Assembly (NCBI RefSeq): GCF_040515995.1
Contig: NZ_CP159485.1
Location: forward strand, 1-64,000
Length of the DNA: 64,000 nt
Reading direction: 5' to 3'
Source: Proteinivorax hydrogeniformans
Lineage (GTDB): Bacteria; Bacillota; Proteinivoracia; Proteinivoracales; Proteinivoracaceae
Part shown: in pieces, positions 57,625 to 63,199 of the stretch
Numbering within the stretch: position 1 is the stretch's first letter
Layout of the letters: the number at the start of each line of letters is the position of its first letter
The notes under the pieces: generated by a model
Told to the model about the DNA's origin: nothing
Database searches by the model: none
The model's input: only the letters and a program-made list of their open reading frames with translations
Program-made: the position numbers and the translations under genes

Positions 57625-57658
57625 TATATAACTTTAGATTTTGAAAGGAGGAAAGTTA

Positions 57659-59170
57659 ATGGAACAAGAAAACCTTAATGTAGAAGTAATCAATGAGCCT
57701 GTTTGTTTAAATCAAGTTATCGGCGAAGAAATAAACCAAATTAGTTTAACCGAAGAAATAAACCTAAGCAAAAAGTTAGATAAGGTAGTAGAGGTAGAAG
57801 TTTTTGTGCCACAACATAAAATAGAAGTCAACGTTTTAGATGACAAAGTATCTGTTGAAGGTAAGCTGACACGAATAGTTTATGGAATTACATTAGGTGG
57901 AGACCTAGTTGAAGAAGTGCTGCCGGAAATGCAGTTTTCTCATTTTATCCATATGCAGGGAGTCCAGCCAAAGGATAGTGCTTTAGTCAATGTGACGTTA
58001 GAAGATTATGATGGGAAGCTTAATGGGAGTGAAACACTGCAAGAGGAAGCAAAGCTTGAGCTGTTTGTTAAAGTTACAACCACAAAAAAGGTTGATATTT
58101 TTAAAGATATAGGTAAGGATATCAACCAAACGAAAGACCTTACCAGAATACAAAACCTTATTGACCAAAAAGAAGTAGAAATTCCAACAGAATTTGATGT
58201 TGAGTTTGACACTGAAGTTAGCCAGTTCATCGAAACAGAGGCAGAGGTTATACCAAAAAACTTGCGAGTAGCCGATAATAATGGAGAAATTGAAGCGGAT
58301 ATAATTTACAGGATTTTATACCGAACTGAAGATGGCAAGCTTAAAGAAACCAAAGGCAAAGAAGTTTTTAGTAAAAAAGTTGACCTGACAGGCGTAGATA
58401 CTTCTATGGAAATGTGGGCAGACCTCAAGGTCAAACACGTTGAACAACAGCTTAAAGATTCTAAGTTAGCTGCGACCCAAATTTTAACTGTTTACTGTAA
58501 CTTAAAAATAATAGAAACGAGTCAGATGGAGTTAGTTACACATGCCGAAAATGTAGATACCTATAATGATAGATATACAGTCGAAAATATTGTTTGTGAA
58601 GAAGAGGAAAGCATAAACTCTCAGCAAAGCACAGAGTTTTCCACAGAAGTAGCAGAGATAGAGCGTATATCAAGCGTTTGCAAAATCATAGAAAACAAGG
58701 TTTTAGAAGATAAGGTAGCATTAAACCTAAACTTAACCCACATCGTGCACTATAAAGATGAAGACGATAAACAAAGAATAATTAAAGTAGCAGGAGAAAA
58801 CTTTACCCATTTCATTTATATGGCAGGAATTACAGAAGATATGAAAGCTTTGCTCCAAACAGATATCTCTGATGTAAAAGTAGAGATGACACCTGATTCT
58901 ATGGCGGCCACAATTTCTTGTCAAGCAAATCTTAAAGCTAAGGTTTTACAAAATGAACTAGTAGAACTAGTAACTGATGTTAATGTGTTAAAGGACCAAA
59001 CCCATGACGCGTCTGTAATAATATACTCAGTACAAAAGGGAGATACTATTTTTAAAATAGCAAAAAGGTTTGGAGTAAGACAAAAAGAAATTATAGGCGC
59101 AAACAAAGAAAACATAAAAGACCCAAATCAAATAAATTTAGGACAAAAGTTAATTATTCCTTGTAGTTAG
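57659..59170 (+). CDS. SPOCS (DUF3794) and LysM protein, SipL-like
   Basis: A 503-aa protein with repeated SPOCS/DUF3794 modules (about residues 30-140, 170-300 and 320-440) and a C-terminal LysM domain (about 457-502; YSVQKGDTIFKIAKRFGV). This architecture matches SipL of C. difficile, which anchors the SpoIVA coat base layer to the forespore. No signal peptide, as expected for a mother-cell cytosolic coat protein. ATG chosen from AAAGGAGG 9 bases upstream; the TTG at 57641 precedes that site. The terminator of this gene is split by an IS element. Confidence 0.88.
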   Translation: MEQENLNVEVINEPVCLNQVIGEEINQISLTEEINLSKKLDKVVEVEVFVPQHKIEVNVLDDKVSVEGKLTRIVYGITLGGDLVEEVLPEMQFSHFIHMQGVQPKDSALVNVTLEDYDGKLNGSETLQEEAKLELFVKVTTTKKVDIFKDIGKDINQTKDLTRIQNLIDQKEVEIPTEFDVEFDTEVSQFIETEAEVIPKNLRVADNNGEIEADIIYRILYRTEDGKLKETKGKEVFSKKVDLTGVDTSMEMWADLKVKHVEQQLKDSKLAATQILTVYCNLKIIETSQMELVTHAENVDTYNDRYTVENIVCEEEESINSQQSTEFSTEVAEIERISSVCKIIENKVLEDKVALNLNLTHIVHYKDEDDKQRIIKVAGENFTHFIYMAGITEDMKALLQTDISDVKVEMTPDSMAATISCQANLKAKVLQNELVELVTDVNVLKDQTHDASVIIYSVQKGDTIFKIAKRFGVRQKEIIGANKENIKDPNQINLGQKLIIPCS

Positions 59171-59174
59171 CCAT

Positions 59175-59195
59175 GAAAAAAACCTCGGTTTACAA
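59175..59195 (+). terminator. Left half of the terminator split by the IS
   Basis: AAAAAACCTCGG (59176-59187 region) is the left arm. Joined over the IS to CCGGGGTTTTTT (60895-60906) it would form a 12-bp stem with the loop TTTACAA and a T-tail. The IS has separated the two arms by about 1.7 kb. Confidence 0.8.
59188..59195. repeat. IS target site duplication, left
   Basis: GTTTACAA, repeated at 60887-60894 at the other end of the element. It corresponds to the loop of the interrupted terminator. Confidence 0.8.
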
Positions 59196-60886
59196 GAGGG
59201 CACTGAAAATCTGACTATATTTCAGTAAAGAAAATAGTATTCAACAAAAAAAGACGACTTTGGTTCAAAATTTTGAATCCAGAGTCGTCTTTTAATAATT
59301 TAATTATGTTCTTTTGTCTATATTTAATCCACTAGTTTCAAAATTCGCTTCAGATTTACTGCAAACATTGATATAGCTCCTTGCATCTCCATGCCAATTA
59401 GACCCGAGGATTTTGAAACATCATACCCGTGTCTATGTTTTAATTCACTATTTTTTGCTTCTACTTTATAACGCTCTTTAGATTTTTCTTTAAAGTATTC
59501 ACTTTCCTGAAACTTCGCCTGTTCACTATGTTCGTCAGATTTGATGCTTACAGAATAGGTCTTGCTTTTAGCTCCAGGTTTATAGCAGCCTTCTTTTAAG
59601 GGGCAAGCTTTACATTTCTCTACGTCAAAATAATATGTATCTGTTTGATTTTTAGATTCTTTTTTCTTACCTTGCCGAGCTTTACGTATAGCCATGTGAC
59701 CAGCCTTACAAACATACATTCCAGCATCTTTATTAAATTCAAATTCGTCTTCCTTTTTTCGAACTCCAGCAACAGCAGGGTTTAACTTAGAGACTAACTT
59801 TATATTATTTTCTTTGGCATATTTAATATTTCTTTTTTCAGAATAGGCAGCATCACCTATAACTGTATCCACCTTTATCCCAGCTTTAGCACTTTTTTCA
59901 ATCAGTTCTGTTAACTGCTTCCCATCATTTTTTTCCCCTGTTGTAACGGTTGCAGCTGTGATAATTCTTTCTTCGCTTAGAGCAATATGAGTCTTGTAGC
60001 CAAAAAAGGATGAATCAGCACTTTTGTGCCCTACTCTTGCATCTTTATCTTGAGATATTTGCAAGTGTTCAATATCATCAGCAACTGTTTCCTTTAGAAG
60101 ATTCAGCTGTTCTTTTACTTTCGGATGCTGAAGAAACTGGTCTTTTTTTGTAATCACTTCAATGAGTTTTTGGCAATAATCGAACTCATCTTCTAAGGCA
60201 TCATTTGTATTTTTAGATGGAAATTGTTCTTTCATGGTTTCATCTATCTTATATACAGCTTTTCTCAAGTTTTTAGCGCGATCAATAAGTATTTCTCTAG
60301 GTGATTTTTGGTTATATCTAGCTCTTGTATGAGTCGCATCCACAATAATTGAGTTGCTTTTTATTACTCCCTTTTCAATGGCTATTTCCACAGTTTTATT
60401 AATTAGCATATCCAGTAGGCTTACGTCTTTTAAACGTAGTTTTCGAAAATTAGTAAGAGAGCTAGGTTCAATAACTGGTTCTTCAGGAGCCATATCCAAA
60501 AAATATTTAAATGACATGTCATATTTTGAGCGTTCTACAACGTCAACATCAGATAAATCATGGATAGATTTTAACAGTAAATATTTAAACATACGTATAG
60601 GGTCTATGGCGTTTCTACCGTTATTGTGGCAGTATTTATCTTTAAGTTCACTATATACAAAAGAGAAATCTACCATATCATTAATTCTACGAAGTACATT
60701 ATCCTTTGGAACGACTAAATTATATATATCCATATATGGACTTAAATTCATCGACTGTTGTTTTTGAATCATGAAATCCACCTACTTTTAATTGATACTA
60801 CAATTATACAGCAAAAAAGGCATAATTGCCTTAGATTTTAAGGAATTATGCCTTTTTATGCTTTTGAGGACTTTTTCAGTGCCCTC
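59196..60886 (-). mobile_element. IS1182-family insertion sequence
   Basis: Element of 1691 bp with terminal inverted repeats GAGGGCACTGAAAA at the left and TTTTCAGTGCCCTC at the right (14 bp perfect), flanked by the 8-bp direct repeat GTTTACAA. It contains one intact transposase gene on the minus strand. Strong hairpins lie inside both ends, 59249-59293 (AAAAGACGACT with AGTCGTCTTTT) and 60814-60857 (AAAAAGGCATAATTGCCTTA with its complement). They probably stop outside transcription from reaching the transposase and end its own message. Confidence 0.9.
59324..60772 (-). CDS. IS1182-family transposase
   Basis: DDE transposase of 482 aa, apparently intact. The catalytic triad candidates are D145 (IIVDATHTRA), D307 (VIGDAAYS) and E438 (YKVEAKNSE). 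The N-terminal IDPIRMFKYLLL region and the cysteine set CKACPLKEGC near 390 are typical of IS1182. The ATG at 60772 has AGGTGG 6 bases upstream; the GTG at 60781 lies within that site. No frameshift is seen, so the element may still move. Confidence 0.93.
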   Translation of the reverse strand: MIQKQQSMNLSPYMDIYNLVVPKDNVLRRINDMVDFSFVYSELKDKYCHNNGRNAIDPIRMFKYLLLKSIHDLSDVDVVERSKYDMSFKYFLDMAPEEPVIEPSSLTNFRKLRLKDVSLLDMLINKTVEIAIEKGVIKSNSIIVDATHTRARYNQKSPREILIDRAKNLRKAVYKIDETMKEQFPSKNTNDALEDEFDYCQKLIEVITKKDQFLQHPKVKEQLNLLKETVADDIEHLQISQDKDARVGHKSADSSFFGYKTHIALSEERIITAATVTTGEKNDGKQLTELIEKSAKAGIKVDTVIGDAAYSEKRNIKYAKENNIKLVSKLNPAVAGVRKKEDEFEFNKDAGMYVCKAGHMAIRKARQGKKKESKNQTDTYYFDVEKCKACPLKEGCYKPGAKSKTYSVSIKSDEHSEQAKFQESEYFKEKSKERYKVEAKNSELKHRHGYDVSKSSGLIGMEMQGAISMFAVNLKRILKLVD

Positions 60887-60910
60887 GTTTACAACCGGGG
60901 TTTTTTGTTG
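60887..60910 (+). repeat. IS target duplication, right, with right terminator half
   Basis: GTTTACAA (60887-60894) followed by CCGGGGTTTTTT (60895-60906), the right arm and T-tail of the terminator interrupted by the IS. Confidence 0.8.
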
Positions 60911-60985: not shown

Positions 60986-63199
60986 ATGGGAAGTCAATTA
61001 AAGTTAAGCGCCAATGCATTAACAGTTTTAGAAAAAAGATACCTTACAAAGGAAAATACAAAGGTTGTGGAAAAGCCAGAAGAGATGTTTAGGAGAGTCG
61101 CAAAAAACATCGCAAATGTAGAAAAAGAGTTCGGAACTGACAAAGAAAGTATTAAAGAAGTTGAAGAAAAGTTTTATGAACTGATGGTTTCTTTAGACTT
61201 TTTGCCTAACTCACCAACCTTAATGAATGCAGGAAAAGACCTACAGCAGCTAGCAGCTTGCTTTGTACTTCCTGTGGAAGATTCTATGGAGAGCATTTTC
61301 GAGACGATAAAAAACGCTGCTTTAATACATAAAAGTGGTGGTGGCACAGGGTTTTCATTTTCTCGGCTTCGCCCAGCTAACGATAGAGTACAGTCAACAG
61401 GTGGTGTAGCCAGCGGCCCTATATCTTTTATGAAAGTATTTAACTCAGCTACCGAGGTGGTAAAACAAGGTGGCACTAGAAGGGGAGCCAACATGGCTAT
61501 CTTAAGAGTTGACCATCCTGATATCTTAGAGTTTATAACCGCAAAAGAAAAAGGTGAAGAGCTGACTAATTTTAATATATCAATAGGGTTGACCGAAGAG
61601 TTTATGGATGCAGTGATGGATGGAAGGGACTATCCTTTGATTAACCCTCAGAATGGCAAAGTTGTTAAAAGGATATCAGCAGCTAAAGTTTTTGGTATGA
61701 TTGTAGAAGCTGCACACAAAAACGGTGAGCCTGGAATTGTTTTTCTAGACAGAATAAACGATGAAAATCCCACCCCTAATTTAGGAGAAATAGAAAGCAC
61801 AAATCCTTGTGGAGAACAACCTTTGCTGCCGTATGAAGCTTGTAACCTAGGATCTATAAACCTTTCTAACATGGTAAAAGAAGGTGAACTGGATTTTGAA
61901 AGACTTAAAAAAACAGTGGAGCTTTCAGTAAGGTTTTTAGACAATACCTTGCAAGCCAGTAAATACCCACTAGAGAAAATAAAGCAAATGGTTCGAGGTA
62001 ATAGGAAAATTGGTCTTGGTGTTATGGGTTTTGCAGATTGTTTAATAAAGTTAAAAATACCTTATGATAGCGAAAAAGCTATAAATATGGCAGAAAAGAT
62101 TATGGAGTTTATCCAGTATTATTCAAAGGAATGTTCTCAAAAACTAGCACAAGATAGGGGGGCATTTCCTAATTTTGCAGATTCTCTTTATAGTCAAAAG
62201 GGTATAGAAATTCGAAACGCCACCACTACAACGATAGCTCCAACGGGAACTATCAGCATTATTTCCGGTGTTTCTAGTGGAGTGGAGCCTTTATTTGCTG
62301 TTTGTTATAAAAGAAATGTCTTAGACAATGAAAGCTTAGTAGAAGTTCATCCTTTATTTGAACAAATTGCTAAAGAAAGAGACTTTTATAGCGAAGAATT
62401 GATGGAGAAAATTGCACAAAAGGGGTCAGTTGCAGGGGTTCTAGAAGTGCCAGAAGATGTTCAAAAGCTTTTTGTCACAGCTCATGAAATATCGCCTCGA
62501 CGACATATTGAAATACAAAGTGCATTCCAGCGACATACAGATAATGCAGTTTCTAAAACAGTAAACTTTAAAAGTGACGCAACAAAGGAAGATATTTCTG
62601 AAGTTTTTATACAAAGCTATAAGCTTAAGTGTAAAGGAGTTACTGTATACAGAGATGGCAGTAGAGATGCACAGGTTCTAACTGTTGGCGATAAGAAAAA
62701 GTCAGATTCCATGGCAGAGGGAGTTCAGCCGCGACCAAGGCCAAGCACCACCTTCGGAACTACAGTAAAGAAGAAAATCGGTTGCGGCAACCTATATATA
62801 AGTGTAAACTCAGACCAGTATGGTATCTGTGAGGTTTTTACTAATACCGGTCGTCAAGGTGGGTGTGCTTCTCAATCAGAGGCAACTAGTAGGTTGGTTT
62901 CTATAGCTTTGAGAGCAGGAGTTGATAAGGACACTTTAGTGGAACAGCTTAAAGGAATTAGATGTCCTGCTTGTATCAGGAGAAACGGGATTGAAGTAAC
63001 TTCATGTCCTGATGCCATTGCTAAAGCCATAGACAGTATAGGCACTACTTTAAAGAATCAAGGCTCGATTGAAGAGGTGACCGCTGGCGAAGCAAACGAG
63101 AATAAGATTGTGGACAAGTGCCCTGAATGCGGAAAAAAGGTAAGATTTGAAAGTGGATGCAATATATGCCCGCACTGTGGGTATTCTAAGTGTGGATAG
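60986..63199 (+). CDS. nrdJ: Adenosylcobalamin-dependent ribonucleotide reductase (class II)
   Basis: B12-dependent reductase of 737 aa. FLPNSPTLMNAG near residue 75 and NPCGEQPLLPYEACNLGSINL near 272-292 are class I/II catalytic-barrel signatures with the radical-site Cys; the TTIAPTGTISIISG stretch near 414 binds nucleotide phosphate. The C-terminus has a TSCxDA-type extension and a zinc ribbon (CPECGKK, CPHCGYSKC). It tolerates oxygen, unlike NrdD, giving a backup under aeration. It is under NrdR control. Confidence 0.95.
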   Translation: MGSQLKLSANALTVLEKRYLTKENTKVVEKPEEMFRRVAKNIANVEKEFGTDKESIKEVEEKFYELMVSLDFLPNSPTLMNAGKDLQQLAACFVLPVEDSMESIFETIKNAALIHKSGGGTGFSFSRLRPANDRVQSTGGVASGPISFMKVFNSATEVVKQGGTRRGANMAILRVDHPDILEFITAKEKGEELTNFNISIGLTEEFMDAVMDGRDYPLINPQNGKVVKRISAAKVFGMIVEAAHKNGEPGIVFLDRINDENPTPNLGEIESTNPCGEQPLLPYEACNLGSINLSNMVKEGELDFERLKKTVELSVRFLDNTLQASKYPLEKIKQMVRGNRKIGLGVMGFADCLIKLKIPYDSEKAINMAEKIMEFIQYYSKECSQKLAQDRGAFPNFADSLYSQKGIEIRNATTTTIAPTGTISIISGVSSGVEPLFAVCYKRNVLDNESLVEVHPLFEQIAKERDFYSEELMEKIAQKGSVAGVLEVPEDVQKLFVTAHEISPRRHIEIQSAFQRHTDNAVSKTVNFKSDATKEDISEVFIQSYKLKCKGVTVYRDGSRDAQVLTVGDKKKSDSMAEGVQPRPRPSTTFGTTVKKKIGCGNLYISVNSDQYGICEVFTNTGRQGGCASQSEATSRLVSIALRAGVDKDTLVEQLKGIRCPACIRRNGIEVTSCPDAIAKAIDSIGTTLKNQGSIEEVTAGEANENKIVDKCPECGKKVRFESGCNICPHCGYSKCG

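Follow-up and report, generated by a model that had tools for sequence, protein, structure and literature searches.

An IS1182-family insertion sequence in Proteinivorax hydrogeniformans belongs to a clade that probably targets the apex of terminator palindromes

Hairpin targeting by the IS1182 family of insertion sequences is already known. The Staphylococcus elements IS1272, TnSha1 and TnSha2 insert in inverted repeats, with no primary-sequence specificity reported (PMC5678879, PMC4923244), and several IS1272/TnSha targets are transcription terminators, as confirmed by RNA-seq (PMC4923244). For IS1272 and TnSha1, the hairpin is lost at insertion and no duplication is made (PMC5678879, PMC4923244). 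As cited in both of these papers, Siguier et al. stated that some IS1182 members target palindromic sequences, a statement that, according to PMC5678879, came without detailed data. Fig. 13 of Wan et al. 2017 (PMC5678879) includes duplication of the loop only and duplication of the whole hairpin as alternative model pathways for IS1272. Outside this family, IS1397, ISKpn1, and IS621 (IS3 and IS110 families) insert in extragenic palindromes, namely particular REP sequences (PMC1525189).

Here, we describe an IS1182-family element in a stretch of 64,000 nucleotides from Proteinivorax hydrogeniformans (contig NZ_CP159485.1, positions 1 to 64,000; hereafter the window). Judged from its sequence and from that of its relatives, it is very probably an intact member of a distinct clade (clade A) that targets intrinsic-terminator palindromes at their apex. 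Like IS1272 and the TnSha elements, it belongs to the IS1182 family and has an inverted repeat as its target, but whereas insertion of IS1272 removes the hairpin, by deletion or replacement, without any duplication, the window element is flanked by an 8-bp duplication and retains both halves of the hairpin. Pathway c of Wan et al. predicts that the loop occurs twice, once on either side of the element, which is the arrangement in the window; that pathway is theoretical and the legend of Fig. 13 names no natural example, while clade A gives many. Clade A as a whole is unlike IS1272 in that 8–9 bp are duplicated at the apex and the target has a symmetric A/C...G/T pattern, and it departs from pathway c in the fixed 8–9-bp length, which does not correspond to the exact loop. 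It shares palindromic targets with the family description of Siguier et al., as cited, and extragenic palindrome targets with the REP-targeting elements, from which it differs in its transposase family and in that the sequence of the palindrome is free while symmetry and composition recur. Among open papers, we found no description of a loop-duplicating terminator clade, of a rule relating the register or parity of the cuts to the dyad, or of a split of insertion modes at clade level, and, on insertion in the loops of terminators, nothing nearer than the IS1272 papers. What appears to be new is a clade that duplicates the loop, the parity rule that it obeys, and the division of insertion modes among clades.

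IS1182 elements are typically about 1.3–1.95 kb long, with a single transposase ORF and terminal inverted repeats. The window element (59196–60886, transposase on the minus strand), whose ends and direct repeats were read directly, has this layout: it is 1691 bp long, with one ORF of 485 aa and perfect 14-bp inverted repeats. The repeat GAGGGCACTGAAAA at 59196–59209 (plus strand) is an exact match to its partner at 60873–60886 (minus strand), and the element end GAGG[G/C]CACTGAAAA is conserved across relatives. The transposase gene (59324–60781, minus strand) was identified from the ORF, Pfam, and NCBIfam NF033551 and encodes DUF772 and DDE_Tnp_1 domains, with Pfam matching both DDE_Tnp_1 and DDE_Tnp_1_6. 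Its product scored 383.6 bits against the NF033551 model (IS1182 family transposase), above the curated cut-off of 270, and the next best models were of IS5 type and fell below their cut-offs. Two subterminal hairpins with A- and T-tracts, predicted to be terminator-like in both directions, lie at 59249–59293 (-25.9 kcal/mol, z -7.9) and 60814–60857 (-25.6 kcal/mol, z -6.3), in agreement with an earlier reading of the sequence alone that had placed terminators at both ends of the element.

The element lies between two genes on the plus strand: upstream, a sipL-like gene for a SipL (SPOCS)/LysM protein (57641–59170; Pfam SipL 1e-20, LysM 1e-14), the putative terminator of which took the insertion, and downstream, nrdJ, encoding a B12-dependent ribonucleotide reductase (60986–63199; NCBIfam PRK08665, 1172 bits). 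The 8-bp target duplication GTTTACAA occupies 59188–59195 on the left and 60887–60894 on the right. Outside it, folding of the joined flanks identified the two halves of a split putative terminator on the plus strand, an A-tract with a C-rich arm (AAAAAAACCTCG, 59175–59187) and a G-rich arm with a T-tract (CCGGGGTTTTTT, 60895–60906). Joined without the element, the flanks read AAAAAAACCTCGGTTTACAACCGGGGTTTTTT, with a predicted folding energy of -17.1 kcal/mol (z -3.44) that none of 200 shuffles equalled; as RNA, it is predicted to form a stem of 14 bp, closed by the loop TAC and followed by six T, and it has the sequence of an intrinsic terminator. The sequence-only reading of an IS1182 element in a terminator loop was thus correct, with the element boundaries slightly further in than first read. 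Two of its particulars need amending. The terminator rebuilt by removing the element had been called perfect; the joined-flank hairpin is indeed strong, but the CCTCGG/CCGGGG stem is not perfect as DNA, since it contains one T:G position that pairs only as G-U in RNA. The duplication, which had been read as the loop plus one stem base, does sit at the hairpin apex, but the predicted stem continues via GGTT/AACC to the 3-nt TAC loop, so that the 8 bp cover GTT, TAC, and AA, with their centre half a base off the dyad.

None of the genomes searched contained an empty allele identical in sequence to the rebuilt window site. In the sister genome, from the same genus, no element lies between the same two genes, and a different hairpin is present there instead (GAGTCCAACTTTTTTAAGTTGGGCTC, -17.9 kcal/mol), indicating that the putative terminator at this spot is conserved in kind, not in sequence.

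Since the genome of P. hydrogeniformans contains just one full copy of the window element (besides short fragments at 329.6 kb and 299.9 kb), we used relatives, which are present intact in many genomes, as the test of target choice. The sample comprised 80 loci from a genome-contig scan, five copies in a same-family genome, and additional copies from other genomes in the phylum. For each relative, inverted repeats were located, flanks were read, and a direct repeat was then required; a site was counted only with a 7–10-bp direct repeat with at most one mismatch, and eroded or recombined copies were left out. In the transposase tree, the 11 sampled clade-A rows formed one side of a branch with support of 100/100, and the window element grouped with clade A.

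Across 90 distinct clade-A sites from Bacillota (several copies share a genome, though at different sites), a strong hairpin lay within 12 bp of the duplication in 72, and the hairpin dyad fell within 1 bp of the duplication centre in 64, compared to 0.85% of 2,926 random positions within the same flanks (Fisher p = 1e-89, odds ratio ~286). The window element, with its dyad offset of 0.5 bp, falls among such centred sites. Plasmid copies held out of the 90 gave the same result: all six, from Metabacillus, Peptoclostridium, Priestia, Bacteroides (60% protein identity), and Enterococcus (two, 55%), were in hairpin loops. Taken alone, the window case could not exclude that an ordinary insertion sequence had landed in one terminator by chance; with this enrichment and the held-out copies, such a coincidence is refuted and its probability practically negligible, and the hairpin-directed target choice first proposed from the window is strongly supported.

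About one in five clade-A sites nevertheless have no strong centred hairpin. Insertion into sequence without inverted repeats, which the earlier reading had named as evidence against itself, does occur, in only a few cases; L086 and L089 (Lachnospira/Lachnospiraceae) are real exceptions, with clade-A ends and 8–9-bp duplications yet no hairpin at the target. In these two elements, the region upstream of the transposase is also shorter (72 bp, compared to about 115).

The position of the cuts follows the symmetry of the target. A hairpin with an even loop has its dyad between two bases, whereas with an odd loop the dyad falls on a base. Clade-A duplications are 8 or 9 bp long, and among centred sites those of 8 bp accompanied 33 even and 8 odd loops, while those of 9 bp accompanied 4 even and 18 odd loops (Fisher p = 2e-6). 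Duplication length, therefore, tracks dyad parity, which indicates that the two cuts are placed symmetrically about the dyad. The window site, an 8-bp duplication on an odd-loop hairpin, belongs to the minority that break this rule by half a base.

The arms of the target are complementary without being alike. Complementarity over positions 1–8 was 0.60, compared to 0.36 when right arms were permuted among sites (z 14.7), and left arms were distinct in 85 of 89 sites, implying that there is no fixed target sequence. The targets nonetheless share a two-fold symmetric pattern, AAAA-nn-CCCC-loop-GGGG-nn-TTTT, which is stronger than in ordinary terminators: at hairpin sites, positions 9–12 from the duplication were A in 73–86% on the left and T in 74–86% on the right, and left positions 2–5 were C in 53–66%, the mirror positions on the right favoring G. 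The comparison set for this pattern consisted of 54 terminator-like hairpins of the same loci. An A- or T-tract was present at 58/62 targets versus 54/98 of the strong hairpins that form the background at these loci (p = 6e-8). Several poorly pairing clade-A sites still carry A/T tracts, and pairing may, on this sequence evidence, not be the sole feature read at the target.

Two readings of the symmetry have to be weighed. One is that the transposase recognizes an extruded cruciform or a single-stranded hairpin, with each clade cutting at its own place; the other is that it binds a two-fold symmetric motif in double-stranded DNA (A-tract, C/G-rich step, 8–9-bp gap, G/C-rich step, T-tract), terminators being simply the commonest sequences of such symmetry. 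Recognition of the duplex motif is favored by the A/T (positions 9–12) and C/G (positions 2–5) composition, which clearly exceeds that of background terminator-like hairpins, by the persistence of the tracts at weakly paired targets, and by the fixed 8/9-bp ruler. The same observations weigh against recognition of a folded structure: the clade-A duplication stays at 8–9 bp for loops of 3–10 nt, as expected of a fixed duplex ruler, and the A/T-tract pattern persists at some poorly pairing sites. Perfect palindromes are, moreover, two-fold symmetric as duplexes too. Complementarity between arms that have no fixed sequence, on the other hand, supports recognition of structure, and it exceeds what column composition alone would give, including at positions without a consensus, which speaks against the duplex motif.

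Under either reading, the register of clade-A insertions probably arises as follows. A transposase dimer would bind two mirror-image half sites, with each arm positioning one active site and hence, most simply, its own cut, and the 3' ends of the element would be joined to opposite strands 4–4.5 bp either side of the dyad. The spacing of the cuts shifts by one base, giving 8 or 9 bp, and thereby keeps its symmetry about the dyad.

Other clades of the family bear on the same question. In genome G048, 26 clade-E copies were identified (L254–L262, L339–L355), of which 25 were flanked by duplications of complete stem-loops, 19–35 bp long; two copies in genome G147 likewise had whole-hairpin duplications, of 19 and 18 bp. 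The P. hydrogeniformans genome contains a second IS1182-family element, in two nearly identical copies (L006, ~103.7–105.6 kb, and L007, ~644.7–646.6 kb of G000:C1) that had no target duplication and were flanked by the remnants AAGAA...TTCTT and AAAAAA...TTTTT. There, it looks as though a terminator stem had been replaced by the element, as with IS1272, and the flanks of ISBf3 are of the same kind (AAAAATAT|IS|ATATTTTT). An element in genome G190 had short duplications and no hairpin. In the transposase tree, the elements with whole-hairpin duplications grouped together, as did those without duplications, and insertion mode, therefore, follows transposase clade.

Because the duplications in G048 and G147 scale with hairpin length and not with a fixed ruler, they favor recognition of structure and speak against the duplex motif, as sister clades evidently measure the hairpin. 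Wan et al. 2017 (PMC5678879) proposed such a scheme for IS1272, with pathways b and c hypothetical. If structure is recognized, the cut would fall in the loop in clade A (loop duplicated), at the 5' feet in clades E and G (whole hairpin duplicated), and at the 3' feet in B/D and IS1272 (hairpin lost). On balance, we regard recognition of a folded structure as evenly poised between right and wrong, while the duplex motif is possible and, in our judgment, somewhat more probably wrong than right. The more specific proposition that IS1182 transposases read palindromes as cruciforms, with the clade setting the place of joining (apex, 5' feet, or 3' feet), is a tentative one that we place slightly short of evenly balanced. 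If true, a single structure-dependent scheme would have each of its three outcomes realized within one family, and the transposase clade would determine which.

Clade-A insertions are concentrated between genes. Forty-one of 48 sites lay outside ORFs of at least 100 codons, compared to 25% of positions drawn at random from their flanks, and the notion that the element spares genes is thus borne out as an outcome. This over-representation of intergenic sites is also what would be seen if elements inserted widely and only the survivors piled up between genes at terminators. We consider such selection in place of targeting very improbable, since selection for harmlessness cannot align the duplication with the dyad to within 1 bp, nor fix its length by parity, and another IS1182 clade (represented by the one element in G190) occupies sites without hairpins. 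Gene sparing follows from the choice of terminators, and a separate preference need not exist: through its targeting of terminators, the element would end up immediately behind genes, where it does little damage.

The earlier reading had also suggested that termination is restored; insertion itself breaks the hairpin, with a median of -15.4 kcal/mol for the intact target and -4.9 and -6.5 kcal/mol at the two junctions. Rebuilding of junction terminators by the C/G-rich tips of the element was considered and rejected, since their contribution was marginal (-3.9 and -5.9 kcal/mol with shuffled tips). Among relatives, a hairpin of -10 kcal/mol or better was present at 57/74 ends downstream of the transposase and 55/74 ends upstream of it. 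It is plausible, going by these predicted folds, that the subterminal hairpins at roughly 75% of relatives' ends take over the lost termination, so that the element's own end hairpins would replace the terminator it breaks.

Our data turn a brief remark on IS1182 palindromes into a sharp rule for a widespread element, in which the target is set by symmetry and the register by the hairpin dyad, and they supply natural examples for both duplication pathways that, in the Wan et al. model for IS1272, were so far only hypothetical. Since mode follows transposase clade, domain swaps between clades could locate the part of the protein that reads the hairpin. For genome evolution, the rule explains how an element can multiply while remaining mostly harmless behind genes. 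For the reading of genomes, clade-A insertions resemble broken terminators, and hairpin duplications flanking an element mark a related clade. A terminator-inserting transposase might also be used as a tool to deliver DNA between operons.

Several further observations concern individual loci. Similar terminators (AAAAAGATGAC-CCTG...CAGG-GTCATCTTTTT) were hit by clade A in several Paenibacillus and Bacillus species (L038 and L045, L043 and L042, L067, L068, L084, and L285), which points either to a hot spot that is hit repeatedly or to a family of repeated terminators. Some clade-A elements are ~180 bp longer (1.84–1.93 kb; L020, L022, L023, L025, L026, L028, L029, L031, L047, L081, L087, L272, L290, L296, and L331–L334), with the extra stretch upstream of the transposase where measured. 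Two clade-A copies in Bacillus dakarensis (L011 and L012) share their left flank and have different right flanks, which suggests an element-mediated rearrangement or an assembly join. In G048, the clade-E copy at L257 lies between two unlike hairpins, which suggests that copies have recombined.

The sister genome (G001) contains a counterpart of the L006 site downstream of a formate-tetrahydrofolate ligase gene (L365, ~2820–2890), where a hairpin (AAGGCTGTCTTA...TGAGACAGCCTT) resembles the end hairpin of the L006 element; going by this resemblance, it may be a solo end that remained at the site, or else a target similar to the element's own end. A further IS1182 element in the P. hydrogeniformans genome (L009, G000:C1 ~1367.5–1369.2 kb) is inserted close to the loop of one copy of a dispersed palindrome (GGGGTTGACACAGAGGTCAACCCC), which also occurs uninterrupted ~600 bp away. 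For this element and its relatives (clade C), a rule drawn from short duplications in repeated palindromes was rejected, as the copies were too few and partly duplicated. Another dispersed palindrome in the same genome (GGGACAGGAACCTTGTCCC) occurs at L002:1669–1689 and L010:1008–1030, and at L010 a degraded IS1182-family remnant apparently lies within a copy of it.
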